DNA of 24,903 nt from a virus. The stretch's first letter is position 1. Every line of letters begins with the position of its first letter. The DNA lies in IMG/VR virus record IMGVR_UViG_3300037502_003241, positions 1 through 24,903 of that record, one strand, 5' to 3'. Positions 5,301 to 23,483 of the stretch are shown here, piece by piece. The translations under genes were made by a program, and so were the position numbers. The notes under the pieces are model-generated. The model saw only the letters and a program-made list of their open reading frames with translations. It was not told the origin of the DNA and searched no databases.

Positions 5301-5420
5301 GGATGAAACTTGAGTTTGAAACTTGAGTGACGGGGTCACGGCGGGTCCGGAGGCCCCGCCCTACCCTCTACTCAGGCTTCAAGTTTCAGCCTTCAGCCTT
5401 GGTTGTTTGAAGTTTCACGC
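5301..5420 (-). repeat. Composite repeat B, sister of the copy at 4872
   Basis: The plus strand has the same opening as copy A (AGGGATGAAACTTGAGTTTG here; G replaces A at two sites in A). It continues with a different palindrome (5340-5360, GGCGGG and CCCGCC outer arms around TCCGGA) followed by CTACC, then CTCAGGCTTCAAGTTTC and several GGCTGAA/GCTGAAA-type heptamers on the minus strand. TCAAGTTTC in the right part can pair with GAAACTTGA in the left part. It lies in the spacer just upstream of the 141-residue gene. Confidence 0.75.
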
Positions 5421-7035: not shown

Positions 7036-8106
7036 TCACATGATGCTTTCCATGAATGCCTCGAGGGCGTTGCGATCGCCTCGCGCCTTGAGCACGGATT
7101 CGGCCTTTTGCCGCAGGGCCGCGCTCGATGAACTGGACACTTTGGGACTGGCCGAAGGGGTCGGCGCTTTGGGCACTTTGCCCGTTGCCGCTTCCGCTTT
7201 GGCCGGTGCTTTCTTGGTCTTGTCGTTGGATGCTCGCTTTTGCATCTGTTCGACACGTGTCATACGCAGTTGTTGTCCCGCAAACGCGTCGCCTACGATG
7301 AGTTCCCAATTCGGGAACTGCGTGATGGTCGGATATTGCTTGAGCGTGGCTTGCAGGAATTGATGGGCGCTGGTTCCCGGTTGGAAGAACTCGGGGTAGA
7401 ACGCCTTCGCCTCCGGAAGCGTGGCTTCGCGGACGCGGATGTATTCCTGCTGCTTCGGCCCGGCTTTGACCAGGGCGCGAGCGTTGGCGCGGATTTGTTT
7501 CACGGCGTCGGCGTCGTAGTATTTCTCTTCGCCGGCAACCGTGACCGTGCCGCCATCGCGGTGGTCGTCGGTCCAATCAAGGACCGCCTGTGCCTTTGCA
7601 ATCTCCGCCTCGAGGGCGGCTGCGTCTGTGAAAGAACTGAGCGGGTTGTCGGGGTCTTTGAAGATGACCGGCGGCTTGGCTTCGGCGGCCGCTTTGGCGG
7701 CTTCGAGCTGGGCCTTGAGGTCGTCGAGCTGCTCGAGGGCTTCGCGCTTTTGCGCGGTGAGCTTGTCGATGCGTTGCTGGACTTTGGTGGGAGCCTCGGC
7801 CTCTTCGGCTTTGTCTTCCTCGTCAGCCCCCTCACCCTCGTCGGGCTCGGCGTCGTCTTCGTCGGTTTTTTCTTCGGTGTCCCCGGCGTCTTCGGCGGCT
7901 GGCTCGGAGTCTGGCTCTTTGTCGGCTGCGTCGGTTCCGCTGGTTTCTGCGTCTGGCTCGGTTGTCTCGTCGGTCGGCTTCTCGGTTTCTTCGGCTTTCG
8001 GGGCGGGCTTGAATTGCACGCCGAGGTTGGCCGCGATTTCTGCGAAGTCGATGTCTGCGACATCCGGACCGTTTGTTTGCACCTTGTCGGTGGTGTCTGT
8101 TGCCAT
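7036..8106 (-). CDS. Scaffold-like protein
   Basis: This 356-residue protein is encoded immediately before the major capsid gene, the normal place for a scaffolding protein. Residues about 30-105 are extremely acidic and low-complexity (EETEKPTDETTEPDAETSG and EPDEGEGADEEDKAEEAE). A coiled-coil-like Ala/Glu/Lys segment follows (about 110-145, KVQQRIDKLTAQKREALEQL). Residues about 150-290 are a globular part with YPEFFQPGTSAHQFL. The Lys/Ser-rich C-terminus (about 295-356) ends in a helix. A basic C-terminal helix binding the capsid protein is typical of scaffolds. I start at ATG 8106 rather than the in-frame TTG 15 bases upstream. It could also be a minor head protein. Confidence 0.75.
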   Translation of the reverse strand: MATDTTDKVQTNGPDVADIDFAEIAANLGVQFKPAPKAEETEKPTDETTEPDAETSGTDAADKEPDSEPAAEDAGDTEEKTDEDDAEPDEGEGADEEDKAEEAEAPTKVQQRIDKLTAQKREALEQLDDLKAQLEAAKAAAEAKPPVIFKDPDNPLSSFTDAAALEAEIAKAQAVLDWTDDHRDGGTVTVAGEEKYYDADAVKQIRANARALVKAGPKQQEYIRVREATLPEAKAFYPEFFQPGTSAHQFLQATLKQYPTITQFPNWELIVGDAFAGQQLRMTRVEQMQKRASNDKTKKAPAKAEAATGKVPKAPTPSASPKVSSSSSAALRQKAESVLKARGDRNALEAFMESIM

Positions 8107-8182
8107 GGTTAGTGGGTCCAAGTCCCGGCAGGATTCGTGTTGCCCGGCGTGTGGGCCGTGCGTGCGGGGTGAATCAAGAAGT

Positions 8183-8198
8183 CCCTGCGCATGCAGGG
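8183..8198. repeat. Small perfect hairpin in the scaffold-gene leader
   Basis: CCCTGC-GCAT-GCAGGG has 6-bp arms around a 4-base loop. It has no T-run, so it is not an obvious terminator. It could shape the leader of the scaffold mRNA. Confidence 0.5.
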
Positions 8199-8207
8199 GG
8201 AATTACG

Positions 8208-8364
8208 GCGGGGGCGGGCGGATTGGTAGAGGGCGACGTTGCAACGGACGCGAACGCGCACCAACTGGCGTCAATTAGCGCGAAAATGGGCGCCCGCAGT
8301 GACGGGTGACGGGTGACGAGTGGCGAGTGAAAGGCGGCGGACGGCTGGGCCAGCCGTCCCTACC
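8208..8364 (-). repeat. Composite leader copy 1, upstream of scaffold gene
   Basis: Plus-strand blocks in order: GGCGGATTGGTAGAGGGCG, CAACGGACGCGAACGCGCA, CAATTAGCGCG, a heptamer array (TGACGGG twice, TGACGAG, TGGCGAG; 8297-8330), and the perfect palindrome GGACGGCTGG-G-CCAGCCGTCC (8339-8359) followed by CTACC. All blocks recur in the same order at 10218-10353. It fills most of the 265-bp gap between the GNAT and scaffold genes, in which I see no gene. It may carry a promoter for the scaffold/capsid genes. Confidence 0.75.
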
Positions 8365-8371
8365 GGGGGGA

Positions 8372-8797
8372 TTAGCGCAGGGGTTTGCGGAGGTAGATGG
8401 CGTTGGAGCCGCCCCACTTGGTTGCGGGCCAGTAGGTGCGGTAGCCGCAGGCGATGAGGCTGTTGATGCTGGCGCAGTTGTATGACACGCAGTAGGTGAT
8501 AAGTTCGGTGACGGCCAATTTGCGGGCGGCTTGCTCGCGGACGCGGATGAGGCGCTTTTGCAGTCCCCTGCCCCGGTGCCCGGGGATCACGCCGGCGCGG
8601 CAAAGGAAGGCAGCGCCGAGGTTTTGCTCGAGGCGGCACAAGCGGAGTCCGGCGTAGGCGACGGGTTGTTTGCCGTGCCAGGCGATCCACCATAGGGAAT
8701 CGGCGGGGTTGATGCGGTCGTCCGCGGGGAAACAAATCTCATCAAGCGGGAGGACCGCAACCGGGAGATCGGCGCGGGATATTCGGTAGCTATGCAT
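8372..8797 (-). CDS. GNAT-family N-acetyltransferase
   Basis: This 141-residue protein is likely to transfer an acetyl group from acetyl-CoA to an amine; the substrate is unknown. The acetyl-CoA binding motif A is clear: AGVIPGHRGRGLQKRLIRV (about residues 69-87), with the RGRGLQ pyrophosphate loop. The motif-B region is SYNCASINSLIACGYRTYW (about 108-126). The length is normal for a single-domain GNAT. The start is ATG 8797; a much longer frame upstream is only the antisense-like shadow of the phosphoesterase gene. It is the last gene of a three-gene cassette bracketed by two composite repeats. A phage acetyltransferase may modify host or virion proteins, which is inference. Confidence 0.8.
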   Translation of the reverse strand: MHSYRISRADLPVAVLPLDEICFPADDRINPADSLWWIAWHGKQPVAYAGLRLCRLEQNLGAAFLCRAGVIPGHRGRGLQKRLIRVREQAARKLAVTELITYCVSYNCASINSLIACGYRTYWPATKWGGSNAIYLRKPLR

Positions 8798-8805
8798 GGC
8801 GACAC

Positions 8806-8830
8806 GGCGCGTCCGGAGGCCACGCCCTAC
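8806..8830. repeat. Palindrome followed by CTACC between phosphoesterase and GNAT genes
   Basis: Arms GGCGCG and CACGCC (one G-T wobble) surround TCCGGAGGC, and the downstream bases are CTACC. It is the same kind as the palindrome at 5340-5360. It fills the spacer between the phosphoesterase TAA and the GNAT ATG. Confidence 0.7.
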
Positions 8831-8831
8831 C

Positions 8832-9683
8832 TTAGTAGAACGGGAAGAAGGTGGCGGTTTGGCGGGAGCAGCCTTTGCCCGGGGCGAATTCCATGATCCA
8901 GCCGCCGACCATGGCGCTGAGGCCTTTGGTGAGCATGAACGGGGTCTGGCGCTGGAAGCAGCCGACTTGGAGCACGCTGATGTTGCGGTAGGACGGAATC
9001 CAGTCGCTCTTGTGGTAGTTGCCGATGGCCAGGATGTCGGGTTTGCGGCCGCCTTCCATTTGCTCGACGATTTTCTGCGGGCGGTAGCTGAGGGCGTAGC
9101 TGCTGCCGCCGCCGGGGTGCAGGACGCCGACGGTGAATTTCTTGCCGGCGGCCGAGAGGTTGACCGTGCCGTAGTCCTCGCCGATGAAATGCCAATCGGG
9201 GCGCAGCTGCTCGAGGCCTTTGCCGACGGTGATGCCGGCGGCGCGTTTGAAGGCGACGTCGTGGTTGCCGGTGATGAAATAAACCGGGCAGCCGAAATGC
9301 GGGGCGACTTCGGCGAACCATTGGCTTTGCGCTTCCCAGCCGTGTTTGTGGGTCTCAAATTCCTGGCCGCGGTAAAGTTTGTATCCCTCGAGGACGTCCC
9401 CAGCATGAATCATGCACTGCACCTTGGCCTCGCGGCAGGCCGCGGCGTAGGCGTTGAGGGCGTCGAGGTCTTCGTAGAGGCTGCCGAAATGGGTGTCGCC
9501 GAAGATGCCGAAGCGGACGGTGTCCGCCGGGATCTCGAGCTTGGTCTGGCGTTTGCTGGCTTCGAGGTGCTCGTAGACGCGGGCCATGGCGGAGTAGCGG
9601 CTCTGGCCTTCGGGGGATTCGGCGTAGGCTTTCTCGAAATCTGCTACGGTCTTGACGGGCTTTTGGGCGGGGCGCTTGGGCAT
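8832..9683 (-). CDS. Calcineurin-like metallophosphoesterase
   Basis: This 283-residue protein belongs to the binuclear-metal phosphoesterase fold. Visible motifs in order are FGDTHFG (GDTH, residues 62-65; D and H metal ligands), AGDVLEG (95-100), GNHD (139-142), VLHPGGG (H at 189) and GNYHK (221-225, corresponding to the usual GHTH). The N-terminal 50 residues are helical. Such enzymes act on phosphodiesters (nucleic acids or nucleotides); the substrate cannot be told. It follows the DNA-binding-like 149-residue protein in the same cassette, so a DNA-end or nucleic acid role is possible. The ATG at 9683 has no Shine-Dalgarno and lies just after a heptamer array. Confidence 0.85.
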   Translation of the reverse strand: MPKRPAQKPVKTVADFEKAYAESPEGQSRYSAMARVYEHLEASKRQTKLEIPADTVRFGIFGDTHFGSLYEDLDALNAYAAACREAKVQCMIHAGDVLEGYKLYRGQEFETHKHGWEAQSQWFAEVAPHFGCPVYFITGNHDVAFKRAAGITVGKGLEQLRPDWHFIGEDYGTVNLSAAGKKFTVGVLHPGGGSSYALSYRPQKIVEQMEGGRKPDILAIGNYHKSDWIPSYRNISVLQVGCFQRQTPFMLTKGLSAMVGGWIMEFAPGKGCSRQTATFFPFY

Positions 9684-9691
9684 GGGCGAGA

Positions 9692-9726
9692 GGATTTCAG
9701 ATTTGAGATTTAAGATTTGCCTAAGG
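9692..9726 (-). repeat. Heptamer array upstream of the phosphoesterase start
   Basis: Minus-strand units AATCTTA, AATCTCA, AATCTGA and AATCCTC lead directly into the spacer before ATG 9683. No purine-rich ribosome binding site remains between array and start. Confidence 0.75.
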
Positions 9727-9747
9727 GCTGTCTTCGGCTCAGAAAGG

Positions 9748-10197
9748 TCAGATGGGGCCGACGATGTCTTTCATTTCTTGGATGACGCGGGGGCGAGCCC
9801 AATACGTCACGTCACGTAACTTGAGTTTGTTCTCTTGGAATTCGGGGAGGTCGGCGTAGCGGCGCCAGACGTGGTTGGGGATGCCGCTGGCGATTTTGAT
9901 TTCGTGCTCGGTGAGATACCCCTCGCCCAGATCGGCGAGGGTGCGCTTGAGTTTTAGCGCGTAGTCGTGGTGACTGCGAAATTCGCTGAGGGTGCGGGTC
10001 TTGATGGCGCCCGCGGTTTTGGTTGGAGAGGGCGGAGTGGACTGATTGGGGCCGCTTACCTCCGCAAGAACCTCTCGTATCACGGATGTGGGAACCGGAC
10101 CGCCTTTTCCGTTGTAGAGCGCACGACGAATGCGCTCCGGCTTGTGGCCGTGGCCATGCCGTTCGATGTAGTTTTTGACGCGTGTTCGCGCATCCAT
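9748..10197 (-). CDS. Putative DNA-binding protein, possibly small-terminase-like
   Basis: This 149-residue protein has two possible helix-turn-helix or winged regions: residues about 1-45 (VKNYIERHGHGHKPERIRRA, then TSVIREVLAEV) and about 90-125 (LTEHEIKIASGIPNHVWRRY), joined by a Ser/Pro/Thr linker (about 50-65). The paired HTH layout resembles phage DNA-recognition proteins. A small terminase subunit is one option, but it lies three genes or more after the large subunit instead of before it, so I leave the role open. It heads the cassette with the phosphoesterase and GNAT. Composite leader copy 2 lies immediately upstream of ATG 10197. Confidence 0.65.
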   Translation of the reverse strand: MDARTRVKNYIERHGHGHKPERIRRALYNGKGGPVPTSVIREVLAEVSGPNQSTPPSPTKTAGAIKTRTLSEFRSHHDYALKLKRTLADLGEGYLTEHEIKIASGIPNHVWRRYADLPEFQENKLKLRDVTYWARPRVIQEMKDIVGPI

Positions 10198-10217
10198 GCG
10201 GGGGGAGAGATGCGCGG

Positions 10218-10353
10218 GGCGGCGGCGGATTGCGAGGGGGCGCGGTCACAATGGGCGCCAACGGACCAGAACGGGCAGCAATTAGCGCGTTCTGGAGTGA
10301 CGGGTGACGGGTGACGAGTGACGAGTGCGGACGGCTGGGCCAGCCGACCCTAC
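10218..10353 (-). repeat. Composite leader copy 2, upstream of the 149-residue gene
   Basis: Same blocks and order as 8208-8364: GGCGGATTGCGAGGGGGCG, CAACGGACCAGAACGGGCA, CAATTAGCGCG, heptamers TGACGGG twice then TGACGAG twice (10294-10327), and palindrome GGACGGCTGG-G-CCAGCCGACC (10329-10349; one mismatch) with CTACC. The TAG in the reverse of CTACC is used as the stop codon of the 75-residue gene. Confidence 0.75.
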
Positions 10354-10577
10354 CCGTCTCGGGCTTCGCGTTCTTCGATATTGAGCCAGTGCTCGTAGAA
10401 CGGCGCCCATCCTCGAGGTGCCGGGTATTGCGCGATGTAATCGAGCCGCTGTTGGTGCGTGAGTTTGCGCCACGCGGCCACCCAGTCCCACCAGATGTCC
10501 TCGCCGGACATGCGCCAAGCCATGGAGCCGTAGCCCCAGCCGTTATACGGGCATTGTATCCACGGAGGCTTTGGCAT
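10350..10577 (-). CDS. Small Trp-rich hypothetical protein
   Basis: The protein has 75 residues with an unusual number of Trp and Tyr (PPWIQCPYNGWGYG, then EDIWWDWVAAWRKLT, then APFYEHWLNIEE). I do not recognise the family; similar short Trp-rich proteins occur beside terminase genes in phages. Its stop TAG (10350-10352) is part of the palindromic repeat, so the last residues (REARDG) may be set by the repeat insertion. Confidence 0.6.
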   Translation of the reverse strand: MPKPPWIQCPYNGWGYGSMAWRMSGEDIWWDWVAAWRKLTHQQRLDYIAQYPAPRGWAPFYEHWLNIEEREARDG

Positions 10578-10588
10578 GCCTTAGTGTG

Positions 10589-10897
10589 TCAAAGCCCTTG
10601 GGGTGACGCAATGGCGTCGGCTCTTCGGGCGGCGAGGTCTTCCTTGAGCCCGGCTAACGCGTCGAGGCCGCCGGCGGTGTGGGCCAGGAGCGTCGGTTGC
10701 TGCGCGGTTTGCGGGGCGCGCACGATGGCTTGGGCGTCGGCGATGTGCTCGTCGATGACCGCCATGAAGGCCGCCCAGAGAGGGGTGCTCTCCGGGACGG
10801 CCAGGGCGGCGCGTTTCTCTTTGTCGGTCAACGTAGGGACGTTGAGTTCGATGCGCCACGTGAAGAGGCGCCGGATAAGGTTGATGAGCCAGGTCAT
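10589..10897 (-). CDS. Hypothetical protein with hydrophobic/basic N-terminus
   Basis: This 102-residue protein starts MTWLINLIRRLFTWRIEL, a short amphipathic or membrane-associating helix. A charged helical body follows (PLWAAFMAVIDEHIADAQAI) with an Ala-rich C-terminus. ATG 10897 overlaps the TGA of the HTH gene (ATGA). I do not recognise the family. The N-terminal helix hints at membrane contact, but no second hydrophobic segment is visible. Confidence 0.6.
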   Translation of the reverse strand: MTWLINLIRRLFTWRIELNVPTLTDKEKRAALAVPESTPLWAAFMAVIDEHIADAQAIVRAPQTAQQPTLLAHTAGGLDALAGLKEDLAARRADAIASPQGL

Positions 10898-11070
10898 GAT
10901 TCTTCGAGTTGCAGGGTTTTTACGATGTCGCTGCGGCGGAACCATTTCTTGGCGATGCCGCGCAACTTGACGGGTTTGAGGAGTCCGCTTTCCAACCATT
11001 TGCGGTAGGTCGCGGGGGTGATTTGCAGCCATTCGAGGATGTCTGCGCGTTTTAGGAGATGCTTTTGCAT
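10894..11070 (-). CDS. Small excisionase/AlpA-like helix-turn-helix protein
   Basis: This 58-residue protein (MQKHLLKRADILEWLQITPA start) has the MerR/AlpA-type winged helix pattern: the helix ILEWLQITPATYRKWLESG, then a wing with PVKLRGIAKKWFRRSDIV. It probably binds DNA. Its place just downstream of the large terminase could make it a packaging-site or regulatory protein. The start ATG 11070 follows a heptamer array and has no Shine-Dalgarno. The stop overlaps the next gene. Confidence 0.7.
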   Translation of the reverse strand: MQKHLLKRADILEWLQITPATYRKWLESGLLKPVKLRGIAKKWFRRSDIVKTLQLEES

Positions 11071-11072
11071 GT

Positions 11073-11111
11073 TTTGGAGTTGGCAGTTGGCAGTTTTCAG
11101 TTGGCAGGGGG
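11073..11111 (-). repeat. Heptamer array upstream of the HTH gene
   Basis: Minus-strand units CTGCCAA, CTGAAAA, CTGCCAA, CTGCCAA and CTCCAAA. The array supplies the last codons and TGA stop of the 76-residue gene and ends three bases before the ATG of the HTH gene. Confidence 0.8.
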
Positions 11112-14494: not shown

Positions 14495-14496
14495 GG

Positions 14497-14526
14497 GAGT
14501 CAGGGGTCAGGAGTCAGGAGACAGGG
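14497..14526 (-). repeat. Heptamer array upstream of the MILELNPP gene
   Basis: Minus-strand units CTGTCTC, CTGACTC, CTGACCC and CTGACTC end two bases before ATG 14494. The array encodes the last residues (PLSPDS) and the TGA stop of the zinc-ribbon gene. Confidence 0.8.
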
Positions 14527-14803
14527 GCCATTCGCGGAGGTGGCCGTAGTCGCGGGGTTCGGTGACGGAGGTGAACTGACCACAAATTCCGCAGGGGCCG
14601 ATATGCCATGTCGAGACATGTCCGGCGGGCATTCCAATTCCGTGGGCCGAGCCGCAGATGCGGCAGATCCAGTCGGGATATGGTGGGCGGTCCGCTGGGC
14701 CAGCGGACCCTACCGGGGGCTGGTGCCAGCGGATGGCGTCGTAGTTCGCGGCGTATCGCTGCGGGTCGACGGGTCTGGGTTTGCTGCCTTTGCCGGCGCT
14801 CAT
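14507..14803 (-). CDS. Zinc-ribbon phage protein carrying an in-frame repeat insertion
   Basis: This 98-residue protein has the N-terminal KGSKPRPVDPQRYAANYDAI, a motif widespread in small phage proteins. Two CxxC knuckles (CRIC near residue 48 and CGIC near residue 74) suggest one zinc site. Between them and the N-terminal motif, residues about 30-41 (PVGSAGPADRPP) are encoded by the palindromic repeat at 14689-14714 and do not look like the rest. The C-terminal PLSPDS comes from the heptamer array. The repeat kept the frame both times. Role unknown. ATG 14803 overlaps the TGA of the upstream gene. Confidence 0.72.
   Translation of the reverse strand: MSAGKGSKPRPVDPQRYAANYDAIRWHQPPVGSAGPADRPPYPDWICRICGSAHGIGMPAGHVSTWHIGPCGICGQFTSVTEPRDYGHLREWPLSPDS
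14689..14714. repeat. Perfect palindrome with CTACC tail inside a gene
   Basis: GGTCCGCTGG-G-CCAGCGGACC (14689-14709) has perfect 10-bp arms, followed by CTACCGGGGG as in the copy at 8339-8369. It is read through in frame within the zinc-ribbon gene. Confidence 0.8.
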
Positions 14804-14961: not shown

Positions 14962-15221
14962 TACCACGGGTTCTCCCCTGCCCCTTCGGTGGGTTCTTCG
15001 GGGAGCAGGCTGTTTTGGGCTTCTTTGATTTTGATGAAGCCGCCGATGAATTTGACGTCGGTTTTCGTGACGCGCTTCCAGGCGGTGAGTTTGTATTCGG
15101 CCTGGGTGCCGTCGGGTAAGGTGAGCAACGCGGTGCCGCTGAAGTCGGGATGGTTGCCGTCTTTCTTGTATTTGTTCGGGAACAAGGTCCAGGTGTCGGG
15201 TTTTGGAGTGTAGGTGCTCAT
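14961..15221 (-). CDS. Small beta-rich phage protein of the 'LFxNxYKK..HPDFSG' type
   Basis: This 86-residue protein has TLFPNKYKKDGNHPDFSGTA, then ALLTLPDGTQAEYKLTAWKR. This LFxN...PDxxG...xxxLTAWxK layout recalls small phage or plasmid proteins near replication genes (DUF736-like), from memory and weak. The C-terminus is acidic. ATG 15221 follows a heptamer array and lacks a Shine-Dalgarno. Confidence 0.65.
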   Translation of the reverse strand: MSTYTPKPDTWTLFPNKYKKDGNHPDFSGTALLTLPDGTQAEYKLTAWKRVTKTDVKFIGGFIKIKEAQNSLLPEEPTEGAGENPW

Positions 15222-15223
15222 AA

Positions 15224-15255
15224 GGATTTCAGATTTCAGATGTCAGATTTCAGAG
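15224..15255 (-). repeat. Heptamer array between the 92- and 86-residue genes
   Basis: Minus-strand units TCTGAAA, TCTGACA, TCTGAAA and TCTGAAA, then CCTTATG including the start codon. It encodes the last residues (SEI) and stop TGA of the upstream gene. Confidence 0.8.
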
Positions 15256-15521
15256 TTGGCTTTGACGAGTTTGACGCTGAGGTCGTAGACGGGGACTTGG
15301 CGGACGGTCTTGACGACTTTGACGATGTGCGCGGGCGCGGCCCACGTGGCGCGGTCGTCGGGTTTGACGGGATCGGTTTGGTCGTGCTCGAGGACTTCGA
15401 GGGCGTCGCGGATGAGCCAGGCTTCGGCTTCGGCGATGGTGGCGAACGGGCCCGCGGGTTTCATGGCGGGCGTGCAGTTGATGCCATCGGTGTCGATGAC
15501 AAAGTAGGTGTGTTTGCTCAT
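15243..15521 (-). CDS. Hypothetical protein
   Basis: This 92-residue protein begins MSKHTYFVIDTDGINCTPAM and has a helical middle (FATIAEAEAWLIRDALEVLE), a pattern seen in small alpha/beta phage proteins. The last three residues and the stop come from the heptamer array. Family and function unknown. The start ATG 15521 lies about 15 bases after another heptamer array. Confidence 0.62.
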   Translation of the reverse strand: MSKHTYFVIDTDGINCTPAMKPAGPFATIAEAEAWLIRDALEVLEHDQTDPVKPDDRATWAAPAHIVKVVKTVRQVPVYDLSVKLVKANSEI

Positions 15522-15900: not shown

Positions 15901-17346
15901 TTAGTTTCCGTCGGTGTCGTTGAAGTTGCGGGGTTTGTAGTGGGGGCTGCTGGGGGCGGGGCGCTTTTGCTGGCGTTCGGCGGGGTTGTTGCTGAAGAGT
16001 TTTTGGGTGAGGCCGGTGAAGCGGTAGCGGGGGCCGTTGAATTGCAACTCGATGTCGCCGGTGCCGCCGTTGCGGTTTTTCTCGACGTAGAGGAAGGCTT
16101 GACCGGCGAGTTGTTCGCGTTTGTCGGGGTCTTTGGTGAGGCGTTCGGGGCGGTGCAGGAGGGCAACGACGTCGGCGTCGTTCTCGATCCCGCCGCTCTC
16201 GCGGAGGTGGCTGATCTTGGGGACGCTGGCTTCGTCGGCGCTGCGGTTTAACTGGGCCAGGGCGAGGACGGGGACGTTCAATTCCATGGCGACGGCTTTT
16301 AGTCCGCTGCTGATTTCGTCGATCTCCAAGCGGCGGTCTTGGCTGGCGCGTTTGCTGACGCCTTTCATGAGCTGCAAGTAGTCGACGATGAGAAGGCGGA
16401 CGCCGTGGCGGGAGACGGCGCGGCGGGCGCGGCTGCGGAAGCTGGCGATATTGAGGGCCGGGGTGCTGTCGAGGTAGAGGGGGGCGTCGCTCAAGTCGGC
16501 GCTGACGTCCATGAGGCGGCTGGCGGCGTCGCGGCTCATCATGCCGGTCTTGGTGACGCCGAGGCTGACGTCGGCGACGGAGCAGAGGAGGCGTTTCATG
16601 AGGTCGACTTTGGGCATTTCCAAGGTGAAGAGGGCGGTGGGGAGTTTGCTGTGGGTGCAGACGTGTTCGGCGATGTTGAGGGCGAAGGCGCTCTTGCCCA
16701 TGCTGGGGCGGGCGGCGATGATGATGAGCTGGCCGCCGTGGAGGCCGTCGGTCATGCGGTCGAAGTCGACGAAGCCGGTGGTGAGGCCGAGGACTTGGCC
16801 GCGGTTTTTGTAGTGGGCTTCGATGCTGGCGAGGGCTTCGTTGACGGCGTCGGCGCATTGGACGAGGCCGACTTCTTTGCTGTCGCGGCGGAGTTCGAGG
16901 AGGGATTTTTCGACGGTGTCGAGGATGTCGTTGGTGGAGTCTTGGAAGTTGCGGGCTTGGGCGATGAGTTCGCGGCCGAGGTGCTCGGCTTGGCGGCGGC
17001 GCCAGTAGTCGCGGACTTGTTCGGCCCAGTGCTCGAGGGTGCTGAGGACGCCGGTGGTGCGGGCCCACTCGGCGGCGACGTAGCCGGGGCCGCCTTCGAG
17101 TTTGTCGAGGTGGCCGGCTTGGCGGAGGGATTCGGTGAAGGTGATGAGGTCGATGGGCTGACGGCGGGCGCCCATTTCTTTCAAGGTGAGCCAGGCGGTT
17201 TTGTTGGCGGGGACGAAGAACCAGTCTTCGTGGACGAGGTCGATGGCAAGGTCGAGGGCGGTGGCGCCGTGGTTGACGACGGTGCTGATGACGGCGCATT
17301 CGGCGTCGTTGGACCAGAGGGGGATTGGGGATTCAGAGGGAGTCAT
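15901..17346 (-). CDS. dnaB: Replicative DNA helicase, DnaB family
   Basis: This 481-residue protein unwinds DNA at the phage replication fork. The N-terminal helical domain covers about 1-150 (SNDAECAVISTVVNHG, PIDLITFTESLRQ). The RecA-like motor follows, with Walker A ARPSMGKS (212-219), TLEMPK (241-246), Walker B LLIVDYLQLM (318-327), LAQLNRS (363-369) and the DnaB signature LRESGGIENDADVV (381-394). The C-terminal tail (about 445-481) is Pro/Asn-rich. The length is typical. ATG 17346 follows an octamer array and has only pyrimidines where a Shine-Dalgarno should be. A likely loader is the 329-residue protein upstream. No primase or polymerase is in the window. Confidence 0.93.
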   Translation of the reverse strand: MTPSESPIPLWSNDAECAVISTVVNHGATALDLAIDLVHEDWFFVPANKTAWLTLKEMGARRQPIDLITFTESLRQAGHLDKLEGGPGYVAAEWARTTGVLSTLEHWAEQVRDYWRRRQAEHLGRELIAQARNFQDSTNDILDTVEKSLLELRRDSKEVGLVQCADAVNEALASIEAHYKNRGQVLGLTTGFVDFDRMTDGLHGGQLIIIAARPSMGKSAFALNIAEHVCTHSKLPTALFTLEMPKVDLMKRLLCSVADVSLGVTKTGMMSRDAASRLMDVSADLSDAPLYLDSTPALNIASFRSRARRAVSRHGVRLLIVDYLQLMKGVSKRASQDRRLEIDEISSGLKAVAMELNVPVLALAQLNRSADEASVPKISHLRESGGIENDADVVALLHRPERLTKDPDKREQLAGQAFLYVEKNRNGGTGDIELQFNGPRYRFTGLTQKLFSNNPAERQQKRPAPSSPHYKPRNFNDTDGN

Positions 17347-17399
17347 AAGGTGGGAAGGTGGGAAGGTCGGAAAGTGCGAAGGTGGGAAAGTGGGAAGGT
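17347..17399 (-). repeat. Octamer repeat array directly upstream of the helicase start
   Basis: Minus-strand units of 8 bases: CCTTCCCA, CTTTCCCA, CCTTCGCA, CTTTCCGA, CCTTCCCA, CCTTCCCA, ending CCTTATG at the helicase start codon. It fills the whole spacer after the TAA of the upstream gene. Confidence 0.85.
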
Positions 17400-22514: not shown

Positions 22515-23483
22515 ATGACAAACATCGCATACCAGGTCATCACCGACCGTTTAATCGCAATGCTCGAGGCCGGCGCCGCGCCTTGGCATAAACCGTGGAC
22601 CGGCGGCGCCGCGTCCTTCCCGAAGAACATCAAAAGCAAAAAGCATTACAACGGCATAAACGTCTGGATGCTTCACATGAGCGGATATTCGTCCGCCTAT
22701 TTCCTCACGTTCAAGCAAGCCAAGGAACTCGGCGGCAGCGTGCGCAAAGGCGAGAAAGGCTTTCCCGTCGTGTTCACGAAACAGCTTCCGCCCCGCGCCG
22801 TTGACGTGCCGACCGACAACGGCGGCAGCGAGACCATGATCGACGGCCGATCCGGCGGACGGATGCTCAAGTATTACACCGTATTCAACGCCGAACAATG
22901 CGACGGCATCACCGCACCGGACGCCGGCACCGTGCCGACCTTCGAGCATGATCCCATCGAGACCGCCGAGCGCATCCTCAGCGACATGCCGAACCGCCCG
23001 GCCATCACCCACGCCGGCGGCCGCGCATGCTATTCGCCCGCGCAAGACGTCATCACCATGCCCGAGGCCAACCGCTTCGAGACACGTCCCGCCTACTACA
23101 GCACGCTCTTTCACGAGCTCGCCCACAGCACCGGCCACGCGACGCGCCTCAGCCGCCCGGAAATCATCGAGCCAGGCTCATTCGGTTCCAAGCCATACGG
23201 CAAAGAGGAGCTCGTCGCCGAAATGGCCGCCGCTTACATCTGCGGCGCCGCTGGTATCGAGCGCGACACGATCGACAATTCCGCCAGCTACCTTGCCGGA
23301 TGGATTGAAACGCTGAAAGGCAACGTAAAACTCGCCGTGCAAGCCGCCAGCGCCGCACAGAAAGCCGCCGACTACATCCTCGGCCGCCACGCTGTCAGCG
23401 CCGCACCGCTGCCCACCACGGCGCCCGCCGTCATCCAAGCCGCCCAGGAAATGGACCTCTTCCAATTCGCAGAGGTTGCTTGA
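22515..23483 (+). CDS. ardC: ArdC-type antirestriction protein
   Basis: This 322-residue protein has the two-domain ArdC layout. The N-terminal ssDNA-binding domain covers about 1-130 (YQVITDRLIAMLEAGAAPWH, PWTGG, YNGINVWML, LTFKQAKELGGSVRKGEKG, YYTVFNAEQC). The C-terminal zincin metallopeptidase domain has HELAHSTGH (200-208) and a downstream Glu in GKEELVAEMAAAYIC (about 230-244) as metal ligand. In plasmids and phages such proteins protect incoming DNA from type I/II restriction, entering or acting early. The gene is the main early rightward gene, behind a palindrome-controlled promoter. It is complete. Confidence 0.87.
   Translation: MTNIAYQVITDRLIAMLEAGAAPWHKPWTGGAASFPKNIKSKKHYNGINVWMLHMSGYSSAYFLTFKQAKELGGSVRKGEKGFPVVFTKQLPPRAVDVPTDNGGSETMIDGRSGGRMLKYYTVFNAEQCDGITAPDAGTVPTFEHDPIETAERILSDMPNRPAITHAGGRACYSPAQDVITMPEANRFETRPAYYSTLFHELAHSTGHATRLSRPEIIEPGSFGSKPYGKEELVAEMAAAYICGAAGIERDTIDNSASYLAGWIETLKGNVKLAVQAASAAQKAADYILGRHAVSAAPLPTTAPAVIQAAQEMDLFQFAEVA

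Follow-up and report, generated by a model that had tools for sequence, protein, structure and literature searches.

GTAG-tagged REPs are known in the PVC superphylum and are abundant in Opitutus terrae (Di Nocera et al., 2013; PMC3733652); the word "phage" is absent from the text of that paper. Heptamer repeats of the TAACTGA type precede start codons in Beggiatoaceae, Cyanobacteria and Bacteroidetes (PMC4679880). Cluster K mycobacteriophages carry SAS/ESAS elements, in which the SAS is one conserved 13-mer, GGGATAGGAGCCC, kept with its gene family (PMC3203893). A limited literature search found no papers on phage junction linkers. REPs and start-codon heptamers have been described from bacterial chromosomes; here both colonise the gene junctions of a phage clade.

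The window is the whole 24,903 nt stretch of viral DNA that we analysed (IMG/VR record IMGVR_UViG_3300037502_003241). An earlier note, made from the sequence alone, had described two matching blocks at 8208-8364 and 10218-10353, with their motifs in the same order and exactly three genes between them. All of this is borne out. The local alignment of the two blocks scores 141, and the 1000 dinucleotide-preserving shuffles average 36.7, peak at 60.5 and never reach 141. The blocks are therefore true direct repeats, related far above chance. Stripped of the palindrome and the heptamer array, they still score 54.5, a value that none of 2000 shuffles reaches (maximum 48.5), and 12 of 2000 random window segments reach it when segments overlapping the query are left in. 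The three genes all lie on the minus strand. The first (ORF149, 9748-10197, 149 aa) is uncharacterised: at E 1e-3 it matches neither a Pfam nor a PHROG family, which leaves its former label of "DNA-binding" unsupported. The other two encode a calcineurin-like metallophosphoesterase (8832-9683; PF00149, 2.2e-9) and a GNAT acetyltransferase (8372-8797; PF00583, 2.2e-8). After the second block comes a scaffold-like gene (7036-8106, minus strand), weakly assigned through a PHROG head scaffolding match only (E 0.28). Upstream of the first block, between it and the gene o10589, is an ORF of 75 aa (10350-10577) with no match among the fetched relatives. Elsewhere in the window, 22515-23483 (plus strand) encodes an ArdC-like anti-restriction protein with a zincin-like metallopeptidase domain (PF08401, PF18818).

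Because the three genes are on the minus strand, the blocks read palindrome, heptamers and CGCGCTAATTG module along transcription. Each lies at a gene junction and is built from three stacked repeat modules: a REP, a 7-bp tandem array and a degenerate CGCGCTAATTG module. The palindrome is GGTAGGG plus a hairpin, a GTAG-tagged REP, located at or just past the upstream stop codon. The window holds five such palindromes, all on the minus strand, at 10354, 8831, 8364, 5365 and 14714; three of them had escaped the earlier note. The REP of the first block (GGTAGGGTCGGCTGGCCCAGCCGTCC, 10329-10354) supplies with its own TAG the stop codon of ORF 10350-10577. That of the second block (GGTAGGGACGGCTGGCCCAGCCGTCC, 8339-8364) lies 7 nt past the GNAT stop codon. 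A third, between the phosphoesterase and GNAT genes (GGTAGGGCGTGGCCTCCGGACGCGCC, 8806-8831), adjoins the TAA stop of the former. The remaining two are GGTAGGGCGGGGCCTCCGGACCCGCC (5340-5365) and GGTAGGGTCCGCTGGCCCAGCGGACC (14689-14714), the latter in frame inside a gene at 14507-14803. As in described GTAG-tagged REPs, the GTAG is unpaired at the 5′ foot, the palindrome falls within 20-40 bp and shows covariation, and there are many dispersed copies. Among 19 aligned variants of the 26 bp element from phages and bacteria, 95.9% of the stem cells are paired, and two-sided changes keep the pairing in 6/9 pairs (0/500 shuffles), with slid structures far lower. GGTAG is invariant in all 19, which were gathered with patterns favouring the GTAG tag. 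About half of the REPs are placed between -6 and +10 nt relative to an ORF end. Since the REP's own TAG biases that count, we give weight only to the 12 stops that a REP abuts, many of which are orthologous. At the same junctions, loci L064 and L015 carry a different GTAG palindrome, GTAGCGGCGGACTATGTCCGTCGG.

The heptamer arrays of the blocks (10295-10332 and 8299-8331, minus strand) have the unit CACTCGT/CACCCGT, which is TGACGGG on the plus strand. The third module of the first block (10218-10294, minus strand) has CGCGCTAATTG within a CCAGAACG...CGTTCTGG hairpin, followed by GTCCGTTGG and CAATCCGCC. Its counterpart in the second block (8208-8297, minus strand) has a CGCGCTAATTGACGCCAGTTGGTGCGCG hairpin, then GTCCGTTG and CAATCCGCC. 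The predicted RNA fold of the two blocks is weak overall (z -1.1 and -2.0), and a search of Rfam matched no family.

Several of these modules are also found in bacterial genomes. A search of an all-bacteria genome collection for an exact 28-mer of REP type A hit 19 stretches, and every title among them names a member of the PVC superphylum (Verrucomicrobia, Lentisphaerales, Kiritimatiellae or member groups). The 28-mer was also hit in 19 stretches of viral sequence, of which many belong to this phage clade. All 12 carrying genomes tested hold at least one further copy of the 26-mer at ≤3 mismatches, with 0 for a reversed-pattern control, and the PVC genomes tested hold 2 to 31 copies each at that threshold. 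REP type C is present in 17 copies (≤2 mismatches) in G008, an uncultured Verrucomicrobia MAG from which locus L100 comes, and in 4/11 members of the family of G008. REP type B was not found in 288 genomes. Tandem arrays of CACTCGT were found in 13/377 genomes of the same phylum, one of which has as many as 134 match positions, and arrays of CAACTGC in 9/377. The presence of the REPs and arrays in these genomes indicates that the modules are host-type repeats. REP A, REP C and the block heptamers were not found together in any one genome; G008 carries both types of REP but a single array in 276 kb. Searches of 387 same-phylum genomes for close prophage relatives gave only distant capsid matches, the best at 33% identity. 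In two bacterial genomes (loci L257, L258), arrays with units of 7, 8 and 9 nt lie close to capsid-related genes, possibly in prophages.

We consider it likely that the blocks are stacks of host-type repeats at gene junctions, with REPs carried in by RAYTs, modules shuffled by recombination, and the junctions serving as exchange seams. The REPs would enter phage DNA inside the infected cell through a host REP-associated tyrosine transposase (RAYT/TnpA-REP). RAYTs belong to the Y1 transposases, and genes for this family are present in 10/12 REP-carrying genomes. None was detected in 13 phage records, and we propose a host RAYT as the mover for this reason. One REP pair seen in a scan around host RAYT genes (L156) is given no weight, as its position relative to the genes is unfixed. 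Recombination between co-infecting phages may then shuffle the modules, and such shuffling would turn the junctions into seams at which single genes or pairs of genes are swapped.

The distribution of the REPs was followed across the clade. Searches with the terminase, phosphoesterase and capsid collected about 100 viral loci, although IMG/VR records may contain bacterial fragments, above all the type C contigs outside the clade. REPs and arrays are present at many junctions in the close, window-like relatives. In 36 such loci (323 kb), a scan placed 83 REPs on the strand of the terminase gene and 4 on its opposite, with 9 in shuffled sequence; detection used our own pattern and ORF rules, and the loci are related, non-independent and partial. 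REPs are few or absent in a sister clade (terminases 82-86% identical) and in a more distant one. The phage REPs are single and co-oriented with the gene in 72/77 cases, whereas host REPs lack such a bias. An inverted REP partner within ~100 nt (BIME/REPIN) was found for 0/77 phage REPs and for 16/48 host REPs. Thus, the phage copies do not simply mirror those in the host, a point against our preferred reading. One explanation is that the phage makes use of the repeats, with REP hairpins acting as 3′ end protectors or translation stops and heptamers as unstructured leaders on which ribosomes land, so that they are kept by selection and are not passive. The near-uniform strand and the single state of the phage REPs, so unlike those of the host, speak for it, but the strand bias may stem from insertion on a single strand or from survival only near genes, and the sister-clade phages manage with fewer repeats. 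We regard use by the phage as a serious possibility, with a somewhat less than even chance of being correct.

REPs also come and go at a single site. The gene at 14507-14803 encodes a small conserved phage protein that reads the REP in frame, and the REP state differs among relatives at the same codon. The window and five relatives (L006, L008, L009, L011, L032) have type D at this position. Type A is present in L117 and type C2 in L010 and L031, all in frame. Four relatives (L013, L019, L028, L080) have no REP and 12-18 nt in its place. The one site is thus found free of REPs, filled, or filled with another type. Intragenic REPs have precedents in Opitutus (PMC3733652), so what is useful here is the same-site series and not the phenomenon as such. 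Its empty, filled and differently filled states make REP movement and module shuffling traceable at single-codon resolution.

The earlier note had proposed that homologous recombination between the two direct repeats could delete or gain the three genes as one cassette, leaving one leader before the scaffold gene. Two direct repeats do bracket exactly three genes here, and similar brackets exist elsewhere, e.g., near-identical REP-A copies flank the alternative genes F5-F8 in L013 and L032. However, in 24 relatives with both terminase and scaffold, the gene slot measures 2.67-4.24 kb and is never empty; none has a single leader and no cassette. The genes swap as subsets. The ORF149-phosphoesterase pair has F4-F0 as its alternative and GNAT has F5-F8, each switching independently of the other, so the three genes are not one unit. 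The swaps are seen in both clades, with or without the repeats, and the sister clade has the same gene slot and few or no such repeats. The repeats are thus not required for the swaps. Deletion or gain of the cassette as a unit is therefore very unlikely. Gene content does shift at such junctions, as the proposal implied, but the blocks are two among many similar repeat-bearing junctions and mark no special removable cassette. On our preferred reading, the three genes are bracketed because two such junctions happen to fall there. In most relatives the phosphoesterase is replaced by F0 (L013:9563-10384 and orthologues). The motifs SDLHCGS, GDATEG and GHRH, found in F0 by eye, are typical of calcineurin-like enzymes. 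Going by these motifs, F0 may be another such enzyme; its homology to the phosphoesterase is not supported by BLASTP or hhalign.

Reassortment is visible at the junctions themselves. Across ORF149 and the phosphoesterase, the window matches L007 at mostly 93-99% identity, and this match breaks off at the phosphoesterase stop codon. Along the window, the best-matching relative switches at 10600-10300, at that stop codon and around the second block. Among the 16 distinct sequences of the scaffold junction, four-gamete sets are seen for the REP against the heptamers, the third module and the 3′ flank, and for the third module against the 3′ flank. The heptamer entry for L007 comes from a neighbouring junction and is given no weight. 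Recombination is the simplest reading of these sets, the alternative being repeated insertion at one site. The same junction bears on a second proposal of the earlier note, that the leader may be a promoter copied ahead of the cassette; more broadly, the block could be any fixed regulatory element copied before both the cassette and the scaffold gene. Both blocks are intergenic, lie on the coding strand and have their modules in the same order, as a copied element would. The module alleles of the scaffold junction vary freely, however, with single modules sometimes missing, and no sigma-70-like promoter was found in 7900-10600 (a weak test). A search for intrinsic terminators in the blocks found none beyond chance. 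A fixed regulatory element is improbable, and we continue to favour host-type repeats at exchange seams.

Many heptamer arrays are adjacent to start codons. On the minus strand of the window, an array at 9693-9720 ends 9 nt ahead of the phosphoesterase start codon, another at 11073-11107 ends 2 nt ahead of that of the gene at 11070, and an octamer-type array at 17342-17399 runs into the start codon (17346) of a DnaB-like helicase gene. Arrays at 15221-15258 and 14496-14530 also reach a start codon or end just short of one. Beyond the arrays of the two blocks, the window has about ten of the heptamer type in all, with differing units. A lag scan of the 323 kb gave 96 arrays at lag 7, 6 in total at lags 4-6 and 0 at lags 11-13, with smaller peaks at lag 8 (15) and lag 10 (17). 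The coding strand of the arrays is 10% G. Taking as starts the ATG codons of ORFs with 45 codons or more, 89/144 distinct clade arrays end ≤15 nt from a start, compared with 11 on the opposite strand and 13% for random positions. More than 25 unit sequences occur among the clade arrays, and the unit changes between orthologous starts. Orthologues of the gene at 11070, for example, mostly retain the array with a different unit. In host genomes with CACTCGT arrays there is no start-codon bias (9 vs 9).

These arrays are the other evidence for use of the repeats by the phage. On our preferred reading, too, most would act as G-poor leaders directly ahead of start codons. Their proximity to starts, the retention of an array with a changed unit at orthologous start codons, and the lack of a Shine-Dalgarno-like motif in array-led genes (0/31, against 31/178 of genes with no array; Fisher P 0.006, from non-independent loci) are all consistent with such a role. 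The two arrays of the blocks count against it, as they are 97 nt (10295-10332) and 192 nt (8299-8331) from the next ORF start, which makes it less likely that they act directly in translation. A further suggestion, which we put forward tentatively and think doubtful, is that the clade has G-poor 7-bp leaders in which the unit is free and the 7-nt period and start-adjacent position are kept; these would be largely independent of sequence, replace the Shine-Dalgarno motif, and be exchanged together with gene-closing REP hairpins. The changing yet always 7-nt leaders pose a testable question as to how such genes are translated. This side result on start-codon arrays with varying units may outweigh the main finding.

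The repeats of this clade resemble four described systems and differ from each. Like SAS/ESAS (PMC3203893), they recur as asymmetric elements at the starts of many phage genes, mostly in one orientation and in some cases with inverted repeats. In the clade arrays, by contrast, neither the sequence nor the associated gene is fixed, and the SAS 13-mer has 0 matches in the window at ≤2 mismatches. Like TAACTGA repeats (PMC4679880), the arrays are tandem, 7 bp in unit, intergenic, mostly a few nt from a start and in one main orientation. They differ in being found in a phage clade and in having more than 25 units that vary between orthologous starts; the two block arrays, moreover, are not start-adjacent and differ from TAACTGA in unit sequence. 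As in REP and TnpA-REP/RAYT systems (PMC8266576, PMC2817692), the REPs have a tag plus a palindrome, and the carrying genomes have Y1 transposases. In the 13 phage records, by contrast, no transposase was found. With GTAG-tagged REPs (PMC3733652), the phage elements share the GTAG tag, the short imperfect palindrome, compensatory stem changes and intragenic insertions. Unlike those, the REPs described here belong to a phage clade, where they are present as single copies, nearly all on the coding strand, beside heptamer arrays.
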